A DNA stretch of 34,684 bases from the NCBI RefSeq assembly GCF_900091855.1, contig NZ_FMCH01000184.1, positions 1 through 34,684 on the forward strand. The letters run 5' to 3'. The notes under the pieces were generated by a model. It ran no database searches. It was not told the DNA's origin and was given only the letters and a program-made list of their open reading frames with translations. This document shows positions 2,257 to 18,409 of the stretch, one piece after another; the first letter of the stretch is position 1, and every line of letters begins with the position of its first letter. The translations under genes and the position numbers were made by a program. Origin of the DNA: Streptomyces sp. DvalAA-14 (GTDB lineage: Bacteria > Actinomycetota > Actinomycetes > Streptomycetales > Streptomycetaceae).

Positions 2257-3555
2257 ATGTCCGTTGCGCGCGATCTGCGGGTCCTGCTGAGGCTGCCCGA
2301 CTTCAGACGGCTGCTGGTGGTGCGCCTGCTGTCCCAGCTCTCCGACGGCGTCTTCCAGGTCGCGCTCGCCGCCTACGTGGTCTTCTCCCCCGAACAGCAG
2401 GCATCGCCGGGCGCGGTGGCCTCCGCGATGGCCGTACTGCTGCTGCCCTACTCGCTGTTCGGGCCGTTCACCGGGGTGCTGCTGGACCGCTGGCGGTGCC
2501 GGCAGGTGCTGCTCTACTGCAATCTGCTGCGCGCGCTCCTGTCCTGCGGCACCGCCGCGCTGATCCTGCTGCATGTGCCGGCCTGGCTGTTCTATCTGTC
2601 CGCGCTGTCCGTCACCGGCGTCAACCGTTTCGTGCTGGCCGGACTGTCCGCCGCGCTGCCCCGGGTGGTGGACACCGAACGGCTGGTGACCGCCAACTCG
2701 CTCACACCCACCGCGGGCACCCTCGCGGCAACGGTCGGCGGCGGCGCGGCCTTCCTGGTGCACCTGTTCCTTCCTTCGGGCGCCGGCGCGAACGCGGCCA
2801 CCGTGCTGCTCGGCGGCGCGCTGTACCTGTGCGCCGGACTGTCCGCCCTCACCCTCGGCCGCGAACTGCTGGGGCCGGACCTGCTGGACAACGGCCCACG
2901 GCTCGGCGCCGCCCTCGCCTCCACCGCCCGCGGACTCGCCGACGGCCTGGCGTATCTGCGGCAGCGCCCCGCCGCCCGGCAGGCGCTGTCCGCGATGACA
3001 GCCATGCGGTTCTGCTACGGCGCGCTCACCGTCACCTTGCTGATGCTCTGCCGCTACGCCTGGTCCGACCCGTCCGACAGCGACGCCGGACTGGCACTGC
3101 TGGGTCTCGCGGTCGGCATCTCGGCCGCCGGATTTTTCGCGGCGGCGGTCATCACCTCCTGGGCCACCGCCCGCTTCGGCGCCGCGGGCTGGATCACCGG
3201 CTGCTCGGCGGCCTCGGCGGTCCTGCTGCCCCCGCTCGCGCTGACCTTCACCCCGGCTCCGATGATGCTGGCCGCCTTCGCGCTCGGCGTCACCACGCAG
3301 GGGGCGAAGATAGCGACCGACACCGTGGTGCAGACCCGGATCGCGGACGGCTACCGAGGTCGGGTCTTCTCGCTCTACGACGTCGCCTTCAATGTCGCCT
3401 TCGTCGGCGCGGCGGCGGTCGCGGCGCTGGTACTGCCACCGGACGGCCGGTCCGCCGCGCTGATCATCGCGCTGTCCCTCATCTACGCCGCCGTCGCGGT
3501 CACCGTCATCCGGGTCGAGAGGCTGACGCCGGACAACGCGGGTCTGCGCACGTAG
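2257..3555 (+). CDS. MFS transporter
   Basis: A 432-residue membrane protein with about 12 predicted hydrophobic segments, consistent with a major facilitator superfamily permease. The basic loop after TM2 (LLDRWRCRQVL) resembles the MFS signature GxLxDRxGRR. The central loop (about 205-235) is more polar, as is usual between the two six-helix halves. No substrate-specific motif is recognisable, so the substrate and direction are unknown; exporter-like members are common in this subgroup. The start is ATG 2257, 24 nt after the ino1 terminator. It ends in a convergent gap facing cca, with a terminator-like palindrome containing parS 12 nt after its stop. Confidence 0.85.
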   Translation: MSVARDLRVLLRLPDFRRLLVVRLLSQLSDGVFQVALAAYVVFSPEQQASPGAVASAMAVLLLPYSLFGPFTGVLLDRWRCRQVLLYCNLLRALLSCGTAALILLHVPAWLFYLSALSVTGVNRFVLAGLSAALPRVVDTERLVTANSLTPTAGTLAATVGGGAAFLVHLFLPSGAGANAATVLLGGALYLCAGLSALTLGRELLGPDLLDNGPRLGAALASTARGLADGLAYLRQRPAARQALSAMTAMRFCYGALTVTLLMLCRYAWSDPSDSDAGLALLGLAVGISAAGFFAAAVITSWATARFGAAGWITGCSAASAVLLPPLALTFTPAPMMLAAFALGVTTQGAKIATDTVVQTRIADGYRGRVFSLYDVAFNVAFVGAAAVAALVLPPDGRSAALIIALSLIYAAVAVTVIRVERLTPDNAGLRT

Positions 3556-3567
3556 GGGCCGGACCGT

Positions 3568-3613
3568 GCGAAGAGGGCCCGTTGTTCCACGTGGAACAAC
3601 GGGCCCTCTTCGC
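3568..3613. terminator. 46-bp perfect palindrome: bidirectional terminator with parS at its apex
   Basis: Every base from 3568 to 3590 pairs with 3613 to 3591, giving a 23-bp arm with no spacer. The outer arms (GCGAAGAGGGCCC and its complement) form a GC-rich terminator-like stem and the centre is a parS sequence. It lies 12 nt after the MFS stop in a convergent gap, so it could end transcription from both sides. Termination is inferred from structure. Confidence 0.75.
3583..3598. other. parS: parS site 1 (ParB-binding)
   Basis: TGTTCCACGTGGAACA, a perfect 16-bp palindrome of the TTCC/GGAA type, at the centre of the 46-bp palindrome. Streptomyces parS has the consensus GTTTCACGTGAAAC. This variant differs symmetrically at one position per arm. 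Confidence 0.85.
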
Positions 3614-3674
3614 GGGCTTCACGGCCTTCGCGGGCTTCGTGGGCTTTGCGGCTCGGAGCGCCGCGTGCCGGCGA

Positions 3675-3690
3675 TGTTCCACGTGGAACA
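3675..3690. other. parS: parS site 2
   Basis: TGTTCCACGTGGAACA inside a 22-bp perfect palindrome (3672-3693). Its centre is 92 bp from site 1 and 24 bp from site 3. Confidence 0.85.
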
Positions 3691-3698
3691 TCGACCCG

Positions 3699-3714
3699 TG
3701 TTCCACGTGGAACA
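3699..3714. other. parS: parS site 3
   Basis: TGTTCCACGTGGAACA. Together with site 2 it is bounded by an outer inverted repeat, GCGATGTTCCAC (3671-3682) and GTGGAACATCGC (3707-3718), so the pair forms one nested symmetric unit. It lies 22 bp before the cca stop codon. Confidence 0.85.
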
Positions 3715-3735
3715 TCGCAACCGCCGAGGCCGGGC

Positions 3736-5172
3736 TCAGCCCTGCTCCGACCACCACTTCCTGAGGGCCTCGGTCGCCGCCTCCTCGCCCAGGGGGCCGT
3801 TCTCCAGCCGCAGCTCCAGCAGATACTGGTAGGCCTTCCCGACCGCCGGACCGGGCGGAACCGCCAGGATCGCCATGATCTGGTTGCCGTCGAGGTCCGG
3901 GCGGATCGCGTTCAGCTCCTCCTTTTCCCGGAGCTCCGCGATCCGCTCCTCCAGGCCGTCGTAGGTACGGGACAGTGCCTCGGCCTTGCGCTTGTTGCGC
4001 GTCGTGCAGTCGGAACGGGTCAGCTTGTGCAGCCGCTCCAGCAGCGGCCCGGCGTCCCGCACGTACCGGCGCACCGCGGAGTCGGTCCACTCGCCGCTGC
4101 CGTAGCCGTGAAAGCGCAGGTGCAGCTCGACCAGCCGGGAGACGTCCTTGATCTGGTCATTGGGGTACTTCAGCTGCGTCATCCTGGTCTTGGTCATCTT
4201 GGCTCCCACCATTTCGTGGTGGTGGAAGGAGACCCGGCCGTCCTGCTCGAAGCGCCGGGTCCTCGGCTTTCCGATGTCGTGCAGCAGCGCGGCCACCCGC
4301 AGGATCAGGTCGGGGCCGTCCGTCTCCAGGTCGATGGCCTGCTCCAGCACGGTCAGGCTGTGCTCGTAGACGTCCTTGTGCCGGAAGTGCTCGTCCAGCT
4401 CCAGCCGCAGCGCCGACAGCTCGGGCAGCACCCGGTCGGCCAGCCCGGTGTCCACCAGCAGCCGCAGCCCCTTGATGGGGTGGTCGGACAGGATCAGCTT
4501 GTTCAGCTCGTCGCGGATCCGCTCGGCCGAGACGATGCCGATCCGGTCGGCCATCTCCGTCATCGCGGCGACCACCTCGGGCGCGACCGTGAAGTCCAAC
4601 TGGGCGGCGAACCTGGCCGCTCGCAGCATCCGCAGCGGGTCGTCGGAGAAGGACGCCTCGGGCGTACCAGGGGTGCGCAGTGTGCGGGCCGCCAGATCCC
4701 CCCGGCCGCCGTAGGGGTCGATGAAGGCGCCGCCGGGCAGCGCGACCGCCATCGCGTTCACCGTGAAGTCGCGGCGGACCAGGTCGTCCTCGATGCTGTC
4801 GCCGTAGGAGACCTCGGGCTTGCGCGAGGTGCGGTCGTATGACTCCGAGCGGTACGTGGTGATCTCGATCTGGAAGCTCCGCCCGGCGGGCCCGGCCTCG
4901 TCCTTGCGGGCGCCGACGGTGCCGAAGGCGATGCCGACCTCCCACACCGCGTCCGCCCAGGGCCGGAGGATCTTCAGCACCTGCTCGGGCCGCGCGTCGG
5001 TGGTGAAGTCGAGATCGTGCCCCAGCCGGCCCAGCAAGGTGTCCCGGACCGATCCGCCGACAAGGGCGAGCTGGAAGCCTGCGTCACGGAAGCGCCGGCC
5101 GAGATCCTCGGCTACGGGCTCGACCTCGTGAGGGGTCTGCTGGGTCTGGGCGGCATTGTTGGCATTCGGCAC
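3736..5172 (-). CDS. cca: CCA tRNA nucleotidyltransferase
   Basis: This enzyme adds or repairs the 3' CCA end of tRNAs. The 478-residue protein has the class II nucleotidyltransferase head (about 30-130) with LVGGSVRDTLLG and the DLD metal-binding motif in HDLDFTTDA. RRDFTVNAMA and the DDPLRMLRAARF RNA-binding segment follow, then an HD-type domain near residue 295 (ALLHDIGKPRTR). The GTG start at 5172 gives MPNANNAAQ, matching the MPNAN start I recall for Streptomyces homologues. No Shine-Dalgarno sequence is visible, and a TACCCT -10-like hexamer sits 8 nt upstream, so the mRNA is probably leaderless. Longer upstream reading is rejected because it runs through the divergent gene's promoter region. 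It is divergent from the DUF6049 gene. Confidence 0.93.
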   Translation of the reverse strand: MPNANNAAQTQQTPHEVEPVAEDLGRRFRDAGFQLALVGGSVRDTLLGRLGHDLDFTTDARPEQVLKILRPWADAVWEVGIAFGTVGARKDEAGPAGRSFQIEITTYRSESYDRTSRKPEVSYGDSIEDDLVRRDFTVNAMAVALPGGAFIDPYGGRGDLAARTLRTPGTPEASFSDDPLRMLRAARFAAQLDFTVAPEVVAAMTEMADRIGIVSAERIRDELNKLILSDHPIKGLRLLVDTGLADRVLPELSALRLELDEHFRHKDVYEHSLTVLEQAIDLETDGPDLILRVAALLHDIGKPRTRRFEQDGRVSFHHHEMVGAKMTKTRMTQLKYPNDQIKDVSRLVELHLRFHGYGSGEWTDSAVRRYVRDAGPLLERLHKLTRSDCTTRNKRKAEALSRTYDGLEERIAELREKEELNAIRPDLDGNQIMAILAVPPGPAVGKAYQYLLELRLENGPLGEEAATEALRKWWSEQG

Positions 5173-12458: not shown

Positions 12459-13130
12459 GTGCAGGGAAACCCGTTCGCGGACGCCGACGACGCCGAACTG
12501 CTCGCCCGCCACGTGGCGGGCGAGCCCGATGCCTTCGGTGAGCTCGTGCGCCGGCACCGGGACCGGCTGTGGGCGGTGGCGCTGCGGACACTCGGCGACC
12601 GGGAGGAGGCGGCGGACGCCGTCCAGGACGCGCTGGTGTCGGCGTTCCGGGCCGCCCACACCTTCCGCGGCCAGTCCGCGGTCACCACCTGGCTGCACCG
12701 GATCACGGTGAACGCCTGCCTGGACCGCGTTCGCCGGACCGCATCCCGCCGCACCGCCCCGATCGCCGACGACGGGAACTTCGAGGCCCTGATGGAGCCG
12801 CACGAGTCGGCCGAGGCGCCGGCCGAGCGCGGGGAACTCCACCGGGAACTACTGGCTGCACTGTCCACGCTGCCGCCCGAGCAGCGGGCCGCCCTCGTCC
12901 TGGTGGACATGCAGGGCTACCCCGTCGCCGAGGCTGCCGCGCTGCTGGACGTGCCGACCGGCACCGTGAAGAGCAGATGCGCCCGCGGGCGCGCCCGGCT
13001 GCTGCCGCTCCTCACCCATCTGCGGGCCGACGGCATGGATAGCGCCGTCGACAGCGGGGGAAGGAACCGGGCGGAGGGGACATCCGTCACAGAGACGGGA
13101 ACAGAGCAGGGCGGAGGTGGCCACCGATGA
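12459..13130 (+). CDS. sigM: ECF RNA polymerase sigma factor, SigM type
   Basis: A 223-residue group 4 sigma factor. Sigma region 2 (about 15-90) shows AFGELVRRHRDRLWAVALRT, the DREEAADAVQDALVSAF segment and TWLHRITVNACLDRVRR. Sigma region 4 (about 128-185) shows LPPEQRAALVLVDMQGYPVA, AAALLDVPTGTVKSRCARGR. There is no sigma 1 or 3. The GTG start (12459) follows a GGGGGGAG site. The stop overlaps the next gene by 4 bp (ATGA), giving translational coupling with a zinc-finger anti-sigma factor. The order murJ, pseudokinase, sigM, anti-sigma, trxB matches what I recall for mycobacterial Rv3910-Rv3913, which supports the SigM name. Its regulon cannot be read here. Confidence 0.9.
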   Translation: MQGNPFADADDAELLARHVAGEPDAFGELVRRHRDRLWAVALRTLGDREEAADAVQDALVSAFRAAHTFRGQSAVTTWLHRITVNACLDRVRRTASRRTAPIADDGNFEALMEPHESAEAPAERGELHRELLAALSTLPPEQRAALVLVDMQGYPVAEAAALLDVPTGTVKSRCARGRARLLPLLTHLRADGMDSAVDSGGRNRAEGTSVTETGTEQGGGGHR

Positions 13131-13999
13131 CAGCGACGACGGGTTCGGGAACGGACCCCCATCCCGAGGTCACCGAGATCTCCGACCTGACCGAGGGGCT
13201 GCTCCCACCCCGGCGCGCCGCCGAAGTCCGGGAGCACCTCACCGGCTGCGCCCTGTGTGCGGACGTCCTGGCCTCCTTGACGGAGATCCGCGACCTGCTG
13301 GGCACACTGCCGGGGCCGACCCGGATGCCCGCCGACGTGGCCGGCCGGATCGACGCGGCGCTGGCCGCCGAGGCCCTGCTCGACGCCACCTTGCCGAGTC
13401 AGCGTGTTTCACGTGAAACATCGTCGAGCACCCATGTTCCACGTGAAACATCGCCCGCCGTCTACCGCGATCCGCGCCCGCGCAAGCGACGGCCCGGACT
13501 GCTGCTGGCCGCGTCGGTGGCCGGGGTGGCTCTTCTGACCGGCGCCCTGTACGAGGCGGCGTCCAGCGGCGGGGGCGGCTCGGGCGGCGACGACGCCTCC
13601 AGCTCCATGAAGAAGGTCGAGGGATCGTCCGCCGTACCGGCCGCCGGCCCCGTCGCGGACCAGGTGGCCGCCCAGGTGCGGCAACTGCTCGGCAAGCGCG
13701 TCCCGGCGTCCGTCGGGACCCCCGGCAAGGGTGGCAATTCCCCGATGCTCGACCGGGGCACTACTGCGGCCGGCGGGACCGACGCGGCGAGCGGCGTGCC
13801 CTCGTGTGTCCTCAAGGGCACCCGGCAGTCCCAGCCGCTGCTCACCGCGGAGCGCTATCTCTTCCGGGGCACCGATTCCTACCTGGTCGTCCTGTCGCAT
13901 CCCGACGACAGCTCCCTGGTGGACGCCTACGTGGTGAATGCCTCCTGTACGGCCTCCAGCCCGGGCGTACTGCTCTTCCGGAGCACCTATCCACGCTGA
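13127..13999 (+). CDS. Zinc-finger anti-sigma factor partner of SigM, containing two parS-like sites
   Basis: A 290-residue type II-like membrane protein. The N-terminal ZAS motif H37-x3-C41-x2-C44 (EHLTGCALCADVL) is typical of zinc-binding anti-sigma domains that sequester ECF factors. One TM helix lies near 124-143 (LLLAASVAGVALLTGAL), followed by an extracytoplasmic domain containing two cysteines. Between the anti-sigma domain and the TM helix, a linker (94-108) encodes VSRET and VPRET, because the DNA there is a pair of parS sites. Translationally coupled to sigM by ATGA overlap, with GGAGG at 13112-13116. The sensed signal is unknown; the location next to MurJ and trxBA suggests envelope or thiol stress. 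The length exceeds that of minimal anti-sigma factors because of the outer domain. Confidence 0.88.
   Translation: MTATTGSGTDPHPEVTEISDLTEGLLPPRRAAEVREHLTGCALCADVLASLTEIRDLLGTLPGPTRMPADVAGRIDAALAAEALLDATLPSQRVSRETSSSTHVPRETSPAVYRDPRPRKRRPGLLLAASVAGVALLTGALYEAASSGGGGSGGDDASSSMKKVEGSSAVPAAGPVADQVAAQVRQLLGKRVPASVGTPGKGGNSPMLDRGTTAAGGTDAASGVPSCVLKGTRQSQPLLTAERYLFRGTDSYLVVLSHPDDSSLVDAYVVNASCTASSPGVLLFRSTYPR
13405..13420. other. parS: parS site 4, within the anti-sigma gene
   Basis: TGTTTCACGTGAAACA, an exact match to the Streptomyces parS consensus, lying in the coding sequence and read as VSRET. Confidence 0.93.
13435..13450. other. parS: parS-like site 5 (hybrid arms), within the anti-sigma gene
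   Basis: TGTTCCACGTGAAACA combines a TTCC left arm with a GAAAC right arm, so it is asymmetric at one position. Its centre is 30 bp from site 4. It is read as VPRET. Confidence 0.75.
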
Positions 14000-15114: not shown

Positions 15115-15444
15115 GTGGCCGGCAACACCAAGCCCGTAACCGATGAGACCTTTGCCGACGAGGTACTCGCCAGCGACAAGCCCGTGCTGGTGGACTTCTG
15201 GGCCGAGTGGTGCGGCCCGTGCCGCCAGATCGCCCCCTCGCTGGAGGCCATCGCCGCAGAGCACCCGGACGAGATCACCATCGTCAAGCTCAACATCGAC
15301 GAGAACCCGGTCACCGCGGCCAAGTACGGTGTGATGTCCATCCCGACCCTCAACGTGTACAAGGGCGGCGAGGTCGTGAAGACCATCGTCGGCGCCAAGC
15401 CGCGTGCCGCTCTGGAGCGCGACCTCGCCGACTTCATCGGCTGA
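15115..15444 (+). CDS. trxA: Thioredoxin
   Basis: A 109-residue cytoplasmic thioredoxin that reduces protein disulfides. The active site W32-CGPC-36 (FWAEWCGPC), the cis-proline region MSIPTLNVYKGG and the C-terminal VGAKPRAALERDLADFI are all present. GTG 15115 is preceded by GAGGAG at 7 nt. A longer reading from upstream overlaps the end of trxB and is not conserved-looking. It is the second gene of trxBA and ends 8 bp before a 50-bp perfect palindrome that contains parS. Confidence 0.96.
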   Translation: MAGNTKPVTDETFADEVLASDKPVLVDFWAEWCGPCRQIAPSLEAIAAEHPDEITIVKLNIDENPVTAAKYGVMSIPTLNVYKGGEVVKTIVGAKPRAALERDLADFIG

Positions 15445-15452
15445 CACGACAC

Positions 15453-15502
15453 CGGCGGCGGCCGGTCACTGTTCCACGTGGAACAGTGACCGGCCGCCGC
15501 CG
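15453..15502. terminator. 50-bp perfect palindrome: bidirectional terminator with parS at its apex
   Basis: Bases 15453-15477 pair without mismatch with 15502-15478. The outer stem (CGGCGGCGGCCGGTCAC and its complement) is strongly GC-rich and the centre is parS. It lies 8 nt after the trxA stop and 36 nt from the convergent GNAT stop, the ideal place for a shared terminator. It repeats the design seen at 3568-3613 with unrelated outer arms. Confidence 0.75.
15470..15485. other. parS: parS site 6
   Basis: TGTTCCACGTGGAACA at the centre of the 50-bp palindrome between trxA and the GNAT gene. Confidence 0.85.
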
Positions 15503-15538: not shown

Positions 15539-16156
15539 CTAGAGCGGTCGCAGCGCGGGCTCCTTCTGGACGGCGCCCAGCAGACGGTCGATCGCCATCT
15601 CCACGTCTTCCTTCCAGGAGATCGTGGAACGCAGCTCCAGCCGCAGCCGGGGGTAACGCGGGTGCGGACGAACTGTTTTGAAGCCGACCGCGGTCAGATG
15701 GTCGGCCGGCAGCACGCAACCGGGCGCGTCCCACCTGGCGTCGCCGAACGCCTCGATCGCCTTGAAGCCGCGCCGGACCAGGTCCTTGGCGACGGTCTGA
15801 ACCAGTACTCGCCCGATGCCCTGCCCCTGATAGCCCGGCAGGACCCGAGCGGTCATCAGCTGCACGGCGTCCGCCGAGACCGGACTGGTCGGGAAAGCCG
15901 TCGAGCGGGGTACATACGCGGCCGGGGCGTAGAGCACAAAGCCCACCGGCGCCTCGTCCACATAGACGACCCGGCCGCAGGAACCCCACTCCAGCAGGAC
16001 CGCGGAGATCCAGGCTTCCTTCTCCAGCTCGGGCTTGCCGGCCTGCACGGCGGCCTCGCCGCTGACCGGGTCCAGTTCCCAGAACACGCAGCGGCGGCAG
16101 GGTTTGGGGAGGTCCGGGAGATTGTCCAGAGTGAGTGGTACCAGCCGACGTCCCAT
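15539..16156 (-). CDS. GNAT family N-acetyltransferase
   Basis: A 205-residue GCN5-related acetyltransferase. The acetyl-CoA pyrophosphate-binding motif appears as RVLPGYQGQGIGRVLVQTVAKDL (R/QxxGxG/A within). An N-terminal segment with PCRRCVFWELD is typical of an actinobacterial subgroup. Start ATG 16156 gives MGRRLVPLTLDNLPDLPKPC; an upstream extension crosses the parB terminator and is rejected. The substrate is unknown. It sits between parB and convergent trxA, as its likely mycobacterial counterpart (Rv3916c, from memory) does next to parB. It is downstream of parAB in the same direction but separated by a strong terminator, so it probably has its own promoter, which I could not identify. 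Confidence 0.85.
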   Translation of the reverse strand: MGRRLVPLTLDNLPDLPKPCRRCVFWELDPVSGEAAVQAGKPELEKEAWISAVLLEWGSCGRVVYVDEAPVGFVLYAPAAYVPRSTAFPTSPVSADAVQLMTARVLPGYQGQGIGRVLVQTVAKDLVRRGFKAIEAFGDARWDAPGCVLPADHLTAVGFKTVRPHPRYPRLRLELRSTISWKEDVEMAIDRLLGAVQKEPALRPL

Positions 16157-16247: not shown

Positions 16248-17341
16248 TCACTCCGCGTCGTCGTCCTCAGGTTCTTCGTCGAGCCGGCTCTCAAGCACCT
16301 TGCCCTCGCCGGGAGCCATCGCCCCGAGGATCCGCTCCAGATCCTCTATGGACGCGAACTCAACAACGATCTTTCCCCGCTTCTGGCCCAGATCGACCTT
16401 GACCCGGGTCTCGAACCGGTCGGAGAGCCGCGAGGCGAGATTGGTCAGCGCCGGCGAGATCCGCTTGCCGGCCCGGGGGGCCGCGGCCTTCCGGGCCGGC
16501 TTGTCGTCGCCGTTCATCATCATCACGATCTCTTCGACCGACCGGACCGACAGCCCTTCGGCCACCACCCGGTTGGCCAGCTTGTCCTGCTCCTCGGCGT
16601 CGTCCAGTCCGAGCAGGGCCCGCGCGTGGCCGAAGGAGATCACCCCGGCCGCCACCCGGCGCTGTACCGGAGCCGACAGCTTCAGCAGCCGCAGCGTGTT
16701 GGAGACCTGGGAACGGGACCGCCCGATCCGGTCCGCCAACTGCTCGTGGGTGCAGGCGAAGTCCCGCAGCAACTGGTCGTAGGCGGCGGCCTCCTCCAGC
16801 GGATTGAGCTGGGCCCGGTGCAGATTCTCCAGCAGGGCGTCGAGCAGCAGCTTCTCGTCGTCGGTCGCCCGGACGATCGCCGGGATCCGCTCCAGGCCGG
16901 CCTCGCGGCAGGCCCGCCAGCGACGCTCGCCCATGATCAGCTCAAAGCGGTCGGTGCCGATCTGCCGCACCACGACCGGCTGCAGCAGACCCACCTCCTT
17001 GATGGAGGCAATGAGCTCGTTCAGCGCGTCCTCGTCGAAGACCTCGCGCGGCTGGCGCGGGTTCGGCGTGATCGCGTCCAGCTCCAGCTCCGCGAAATAG
17101 GCCCCCTCCACCGGGGCCCGCTGCGGAGACGGATCAGGCTCTGTTTCACGTGAAACAGGGATGTCCACCACCGGCGGGGCGGACTCGGCCGCGCCCCGGT
17201 CCACCAGACCGGTCACCTTGGCCGCCGCGACACCACGCTCGGGTGTCAGGACGGATGCTGACGACGGCGATGTGCCGGTCGACTGCGGCGCGGCCGGGAT
17301 CAGCGCGCCGAGACCACGGCCGAGCCCTCTGCGTCGATCAC

Positions 17342-17345
<4 letters not shown>
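16248..17345 (-). CDS. parB: Chromosome partitioning protein ParB
   Basis: ParB is a CTP-dependent DNA clamp that loads at parS and organises the origin. The 365-residue protein has a disordered N-terminus beginning RRRGLGRGLGALIP (ParA-contacting), then the CTPase domain (about 85-180) with NPRQPREVFDEDAL, QPVVVR and the GERRWRACREAGL box. A central helix-turn-helix follows (about 190-260, EQLADRIGRSRSQVSNTLRLLKL). An Arg/Lys-rich linker and a C-terminal dimerisation region end in an acidic tail. The GTG start overlaps the parA stop by 4 bp (GTGA), giving translational coupling. The N-terminal linker encodes VSRET because an exact parS lies in the gene at 17142-17157. Confidence 0.96.
17142..17157. 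other. parS: parS site 7, inside parB
   Basis: TGTTTCACGTGAAACA, an exact consensus within an 18-bp palindrome (17141-17158). On the minus strand it is read as VSRET in the ParB linker. Confidence 0.93.

Positions 17346-18409
<1,064 letters not shown>

Follow-up and report, generated by a model that had tools for sequence, protein, structure and literature searches.

The locus examined here raises the question of why a parS site should occupy the exact centre of a long perfect palindrome between two convergent genes, and on which molecule that palindrome acts. It lies in a 34,684-nucleotide stretch of the genome of Streptomyces sp. DvalAA-14, hereafter called the window, and the features under discussion are listed in Table 1. 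Between an MFS transporter gene and cca, whose stop codon is at 3736-3738, is a 46-bp palindrome made of two 23-nt arms (3568-3590 and 3591-3613) that are 100% complementary and are separated by a spacer of 0. On its dyad is GTTCCACGTGGAAC, a 14-bp palindrome of the GTTTCACGTGAAAC family and a symmetric variant with two mismatches relative to that consensus. A preliminary description of this DNA had reported a mismatch-free palindrome with parS at its apex, placed between convergent MFS and cca genes; we confirm its anatomy, and gene calls and Pfam matches confirm its location. The chance of obtaining 16 pairs beyond the seven contributed by parS itself is approximately 2e-9 at the GC content of the window, and the longest arm in each of 20 mononucleotide-shuffled windows ranged from 7 to 10.

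Table 1. Features of the window that bear on the two parS-centred palindromes
Feature	Coordinates	Strand	Remarks
MFS transporter gene	2257-3555	+	Pfam MFS_1; stop codon 12 nt before the 46-bp palindrome
Perfect 46-bp palindrome	3568-3613	unstranded	parS core flanked on both sides by 16-nt outer arms
parS GTTCCACGTGGAAC	3584-3597		On the dyad of the 46-bp palindrome
Inverted pair of the two cca-side parS	3671-3718		Possible cca hairpin
parS, cca side of the MFS-cca gap	3676-3689		Within its own perfect palindrome, 3672-3693
parS	3700-3713		22 nt past the cca stop codon
cca (tRNA nucleotidyltransferase/poly(A) polymerase family)	3736-5172	-	Pfam PolyA_pol/HD; start codon uncertain
trxA (thioredoxin)	15115-15444	+	Gene call and Pfam
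Perfect 50-bp palindrome, second composite	15453-15502		8 nt past the trxA stop codon, 36 nt from the GNAT stop codon
parS	15471-15484		On the dyad of the 50-bp palindrome
GNAT acetyltransferase gene	15539-16087	-	Gene call and Pfam; convergent with trxA
parB	16248-17111	-	Pfam ParB_N, HTH_ParB, ParB_C; presumed reader of the parS sites
parA	17342-18274	-	Pfam AAA_31, CbiA/ParA

The window contains nine parS sites together with parB, parA and gidB, and judged by these genes it is an origin-proximal parS cluster. Its longest perfect palindromes are the 50-bp palindrome between trxA and the GNAT gene and, after it, the 46-bp palindrome, both of which are centred on parS. The third-longest (12500-12525) is a perfect 26-bp palindrome with a CACGTG core; it contains no parS and lies inside a called gene (12459-13130). 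The whole genome holds 22 sites that match GTTYCACGTGRAAC, as compared with 0 for the reversed control, and two of the 22, both within the window, carry a long palindromic extension. Two other parS sites, 30 nt apart at 13406-13449, lie inside a called gene (13127-13999) that has no Pfam match; either this gene call is doubtful or the sites constrain the encoded protein. A dialect of parS is also apparent, in that many sites in the genus of the window read GTTCCACGTGGAAC, including those at 3584, 3676, 3700 and 15471, and Streptomyces records mostly read GTTTCACGTGAAAC, a comparison that also took in loci L016-L094. The half-sites of this dialect change jointly: at position 4 of the first cca site there are 20 C-G, 49 T-A and 5 other combinations (n = 74).

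With respect to transcription, the 46-bp element has some of the properties of a terminator. Folding predicts that a hairpin is possible in RNA of either strand, and the 46-mer is predicted to form a 21-bp stem closed by an ACGU loop at -44.6 kcal/mol (z of -11.35 relative to shuffles). This is a stable stem-loop shortly 3' of a stop codon, that of the MFS gene; 122 nt separate the far end of the element from the cca stop codon. The U-tract of a canonical intrinsic terminator is absent after the stem, and a simple terminator scan produced no match. According to the accessible part of one Term-seq study, terminators of Streptomyces are poor in U, and their hairpins are the longest and most stable (PMC12207403). 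Our preferred reading, to which we assign a probability of roughly 0.7, is that the 46-bp element is a terminator hairpin of the Streptomyces type, poor in U and with a long stem, and that its innermost seven pairs are a parS site, such that ParB would read the DNA and the hairpin would act in the RNA.

The cca side of the same gap has parS sites of its own. The two sites nearest to cca form an inverted pair with 20-nt arms (3671-3690 and 3699-3718) and 8 nt between them, and the 76 nt around this pair have predicted folding energies of -48.7 kcal/mol on one strand and -48.1 kcal/mol on the other. Since the flanks of the two cca-side sites pair with each other, a hairpin incorporating parS is possible at both gene ends, that of MFS and that of cca. 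More generally, parS is itself palindromic, so that any two copies are inverted repeats of one another and have the potential to form a hairpin. Pairs of parS spaced 24-27 nt apart, like those at 3676 and 3700, recur in the genus at the cca ends of L024, L025, L029, L031 and L032. Positions 3608-3652, between the 46-bp palindrome and the cca-side pair, contain a tandem repeat with a 9-nt unit (CTTCGCGGG-like), seen as four 18-nt copies that overlap.

We examined the cca end at 110 loci, consisting of 30 from the genus of the window (the window included) and 80 named records. The named matches belong to Streptomyces, Kitasatospora and Streptacidiphilus, which points to the family Streptomycetaceae. 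A parS site is present within 700 nt of the cca stop codon at 76 of the 110 loci and within 145 nt at 74 of them. No parS was found within 700 nt of cca at 30 loci titled as other genera or unplaced MAGs (L095-L125 minus L099). The outer arms at cca parS sites are often long, reaching a maximum of 31 nt (L052), and their sequences vary between species. At position 10 of cca site 1, 59 of 74 rows are paired (27 G-C, 28 C-G and 4 T-A), as compared with the 30.8 expected from base composition. In comparisons of nearest neighbours, positions that had changed on both sides were still paired in 57 cases at site 1 and unpaired in 19, relative to 31.0 and 32.7 with a random right arm; the corresponding values at site 2 are 39 and 14, relative to 19.5 and 20.3.

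Independent left-arm changes at positions 9-18 were then scored against the right-arm partner on a tree built from cca DNA, using counts that sum over the four bases, so that one change may count twice. At site 1, the partner changed to a matching base in 138.3 cases, changed to a wrong base in 16.6 and did not change in 131.1. Shifting the right arm by +1, -1 or +2 brought the matched and wrong counts near parity (46.6/41.8, 41.8/36.5 and 39.6/47.1). Likewise, the counts at site 2 are 97.2 matching, 14.3 wrong and 79.6 with no partner change, and those in the shifted registers are 29.0/26.9, 16.9/21.2 and 20.6/26.8. The outer arms at the cca sites have thus undergone compensatory evolution around an invariant parS core, with about half of the changes unanswered. 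These are the changes for which the preliminary description had proposed to look, and they were found.

To place these sites in a wider context, we surveyed 595 parS sites in 69 genomes of the family. Nine first genomes contributed 161 parS from stretches around listed parS sites, and 60 later genomes contributed one stretch each, of at most 20 kb, running from cca towards oriC; for G038 (25 parS), the sampled sites are a lower bound and some of the 25 may be missing. Only exact matches to GTTYCACGTGRAAC were counted, and genes were called with our own codon-usage script, not taken from annotation. We excluded repeated copies and any site lying less than 60 nt from the end of a locus, and set aside 6 sites at a gene edge or in unknown context (0/6 extended). 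Extension past parS was scored as +1 per pair and -2 per mismatch, with a score of at least 7 regarded as long.

Long extensions are largely confined to the 3' ends of genes. Within 60 nt 3' of a stop codon, 84 of 217 parS have one, as compared with 9 of 372 away from gene 3' ends (6/166 in coding sequence, 3/196 in intergenic sequence more than 60 nt from a stop codon, and 0/10 between divergent genes). The 60-nt class was fixed after the first nine genomes had been viewed, and the 60 later genomes, 18 of which had already been viewed at the cca end and others of which may coincide with named records, serve as its test: 65 of 157 near-stop sites are extended, as compared with 7 of 275 elsewhere. 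In the first nine genomes, 19 of 60 near-stop sites are extended, and 2000 flank shuffles gave a maximum of 3. When the left flanks of the 217 near-stop sites were combined at random with their right flanks (400 shuffles), long extensions numbered 4.0 on average and 10 at most, versus the 84 observed. For intergenic sites more than 60 nt from a stop codon, mixed flanks gave a mean of 13.2, above the 3 observed, and coding sites have a slight excess (6 observed, shuffled mean of 2.2 and maximum of 7). The Fisher p value for the near-stop enrichment is 9e-32, and it includes same-gene sites in related genomes that are not independent. A terminator-like outer stem around parS, as proposed for the window, is a real and recurring arrangement.

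At least one parS with such a stem (hereafter hairpin-parS) is present in the sampled stretches of 53 of the 69 genomes; the 16 with none in the sample include G005, G006, G025, G028 and G031, from the genus of the window. The genomes counted have 10-28 parS each. In the stretches examined, 36.5% of parS fall in the 4.3% of bases that lie just 3' of stop codons, an 8.5-fold over-representation, and 32.9% fall in the 5.4% that make up other intergenic bases beside a gene end (6.0-fold). Outside the family, the outer stem was found at 0 of 58 parS in 20 genomes of other actinobacterial families, only 6 of these sites being within 60 nt past a stop codon. Among tandem intergenic parS more than 60 nt from a stop codon in the 69 genomes, asymmetric sites are oriented 27 versus 2 relative to the adjoining gene end, and this one-way asymmetry probably reflects sites at a few shared genes.

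These distributions bear on the molecule that carries the constraint. The outer arms might play their part in the DNA itself and not act in RNA at all, either by extending the recognition site of ParB or by forming a cruciform. The arms are indeed symmetric on DNA and have no wobble bias, as this explanation would have it, and parS is always at the exact centre, which is a result of how the sites were scored. However, the pairing of the outer arms is conserved and their sequence is not, making direct reading of the bases unlikely, and 363 of the 372 parS away from gene 3' ends have no outer arms, so that a role in DNA would need some specificity for 3' ends. We give this explanation hardly any credence. 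Given their position after stop codons, it is likely that the constraint on the arms acts on RNA.

The stem and parS are separable. Among 68 cca ends, 44 have parS at a stem apex, 16 have parS without a stem and 8 have no parS; among 68 trxA ends, the corresponding numbers are 12, 45 and 11. We also took the strongest hairpin after each gene in a separate count. By this count, parS is at the apex of a strong hairpin at 45 of 60 cca ends with parS; at 43 of the 57 parS-bearing trxA ends, a strong hairpin is present and its apex lies elsewhere. Ends without parS have an ordinary hairpin at 4 of 8 cca ends and a strong hairpin at 9 of 12 trxA ends. The existence of hairpins without parS and of parS without a stem indicates that neither element needs the other, and stemless parS at 16/60 cca and 45/57 trxA parS-bearing ends, a situation that the preliminary description had itself named as contrary to its proposal, argues against an obligate joint function. 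Among parS-bearing rows, the minimum number of changes between stem and no stem on the tree is 9 at cca and 4 at trxA (cca row L143 is absent from the tree counts). As judged from these sequences, stem and parS appear to have been joined, or parted, several times.

The arms could also have come from mutation alone, with slippage or template switching at parS copying a flank and selection only purging harmful cases. The stems are nearly perfect, as would be expected of such copying: interrupted positions amount to 4/1037 (0.4%) in parS stems, as compared with 12/635 (1.9%) in hairpins without parS. On the other hand, non-coding intergenic parS more than 60 nt from a stop codon are extended in just the 3 of 196 cases given above, and relatives have parS-free hairpins at the same gene ends, in the numbers just stated for cca and trxA. 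Template switching at parS may contribute to the perfection of the arms; alone, it would not explain confinement to gene 3' ends, and we consider mutation alone to be a very improbable explanation.

The 84 near-stop stems resemble terminators in several respects. The median distance from the stop codon to the outer base of the stem is 13 nt (range -10 to 44), and the arms have a median length of 19 nt. Folded alone at 37 C, they have a median stability of -32.8 kcal/mol, and 73 of the 84 are at or below -23 kcal/mol, the boundary between structured and less structured 3' ends in Streptomyces clavuligerus, where it applies to 40 nt folded at 30 C (PMC8269248, accessible part). Of the 1221 other gene ends in these stretches, 62 are followed by a hairpin of the same size without parS. 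A purine-rich 5' arm, considered as a terminator signature, did not distinguish the groups (0.49-0.53 in the four groups with at least 7 hairpins).

We also considered whether wobble pairs betray folding in RNA, in which case G.U pairs would be expected on the strand of the nearest gene. The 84 stems comprise 1033 pairs and 4 interruptions, among which 0 are G.U or A.C, and a strand bias in G.U as a sign of RNA folding was set aside since the stems hold neither. With stems so nearly perfect, a strand-specific wobble test says nothing about selection on RNA versus DNA. An apparent excess of G.U over A.C in a column count at cca site 1 was discarded because columns outside the stem were included. 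Asymmetric near-stop parS, which are few, are in the wobble versus the mismatch orientation in 5 versus 2 cases (tandem) and 3 versus 4 cases (convergent).

How transcripts would come to end at these stems is a further matter. The hairpin might be a stabiliser of 3' ends, with transcription ending downstream, for example through Rho, and exonucleases trimming the transcript back to the stem; the overlap with parS would be unchanged. The stems are U-poor, and the Term-seq papers, in the portions available, do not decide between intrinsic termination and Rho-dependent termination followed by trimming as the source of U-poor structured 3' ends in Streptomyces (PMC8269248, PMC12207403). While the 10 nt past the stem have a somewhat raised U content (2.24 versus a background of 1.49, with at least 3 U in 31 of the 84), this does not separate a stabiliser from a terminator. 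We regard a stabiliser as the less probable alternative to a terminator hairpin, and an unlikely one.

If the stems are terminator hairpins with parS as their innermost pairs, the following sequence of events can be proposed. Polymerase arriving from the MFS gene, and less often from the cca side, would transcribe through parS; RNA from either strand would fold into the full stem, and the transcript would end, or be trimmed, at its outer base. ParB would bind the same bases as duplex DNA, making them a loading site. Nearly all ParB ChIP-seq peaks in Streptomyces venezuelae correspond to parS sites, according to the part of that report available to us (PMC4852455), and occupancy of these particular sites, like termination at them, is what we would expect. 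The two jobs would be done on different molecules and would require only a shared dyad. As for origin, a parS at a gene 3' end would already supply an apex and a 4-nt loop, and complementary outer arms could have arisen repeatedly on either side of it; alternatively, parS could have taken over the tip of an existing terminator.

Two suggestions of the preliminary description find no support here. One was that polymerase is removed exactly where the ParB clamp opens. The hairpin can form only once polymerase has passed through the entire parS and on to the end of the stem, 16 nt further, so the picture of removal at the clamp does not fit. In vitro, moreover, clusters of Bacillus subtilis ParB on parS did not hinder the movement of Escherichia coli RNA polymerase, according to the available part of one study (PMC10681803). 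If this holds for ParB clusters, there is little mechanical need to remove polymerase at the clamp. The other was that a single element could end transcription from both sides. The symmetric 46-bp palindrome is predicted to fold on both strands, but it lies 122 nt from the cca stop codon, and cca has its separate parS pair. Two hairpin-parS share a gap in 14 cases, and in all 14 one of them is closer to each of the converging genes, giving each gene one of its own.

A selected coupling between the two functions is conceivable, whereby termination just past parS would keep read-through out of the ParB-covered flanks and ParB occupancy would alter read-through. We regard such coupling as doubtful.

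Both parS and U-poor terminators are well known. The hairpin-parS share with the chromosomal parS of Streptomyces their motif family, the origin-proximal cluster and the nearby parAB, whereas the chromosomal sites, in the parts of the reports available, are described without the long palindrome or the covarying outer arms seen here. Among papers and reviews on ParB, the word terminator occurs 0 times in the main text, as available, of PMC5157956, PMC7022226 and PMC4852455 and is used only for cloning constructs in that of PMC4949633; parS is absent from the available main text of the Term-seq papers PMC8269248 and PMC12207403. With the U-poor intrinsic (I-shaped) terminators of Streptomyces, as far as the available text of those two papers describes them, the hairpin-parS have in common a location just past stop codons, long and stable GC-rich stems, a 4-nt loop and few U; they differ in that the innermost seven pairs are fixed as parS and the outer arms are variable. 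A search of the literature, mostly open-access and without preprints, on parS in terminators or hairpins and on parS placement revealed no description of a parS-terminator composite.

The nearest precedent is the neisserial DUS found in rho-independent terminators, where a short DNA recognition motif likewise doubles as part of a terminator (PMC2397512, in the part available). As described there, two inverted copies of the motif make up the stem of a DUS terminator, in the service of transformation, whereas a hairpin-parS has one palindromic motif at its apex and variable arms, in the service of segregation. A terminator of the DUS/USS type was rejected for 3568-3613, which has a single parS at the apex and outer arms that are not copies of the motif. 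The parS pair at 3671-3718 is the only neighbour with a DUS-like two-copy layout and is the closer parallel.

Taken as a terminator with parS at its apex, the 46-bp element is an instance in which a palindromic signal recognised in DNA and another recognised in RNA share one dyad. The over-representation of parS just past stop codons suggests a rule for the placement of centromere sites in Streptomyces. It also has practical consequences, in that predictors of terminators and of parS will match the same loci, and caution is warranted since deletion of a hairpin-parS may change transcription of its neighbours. The relation of ParB to transcription is debated; it becomes testable at natural sites, since a single genome can contain both stemmed and stemless parS and relatives have both kinds at the same gene. 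If the coupling considered above were real, transcription and ParB loading would be mutually tuned at many gene ends, and the expression of origin-proximal genes would respond to the state of segregation, for example as ParB complexes assemble in sporulation.
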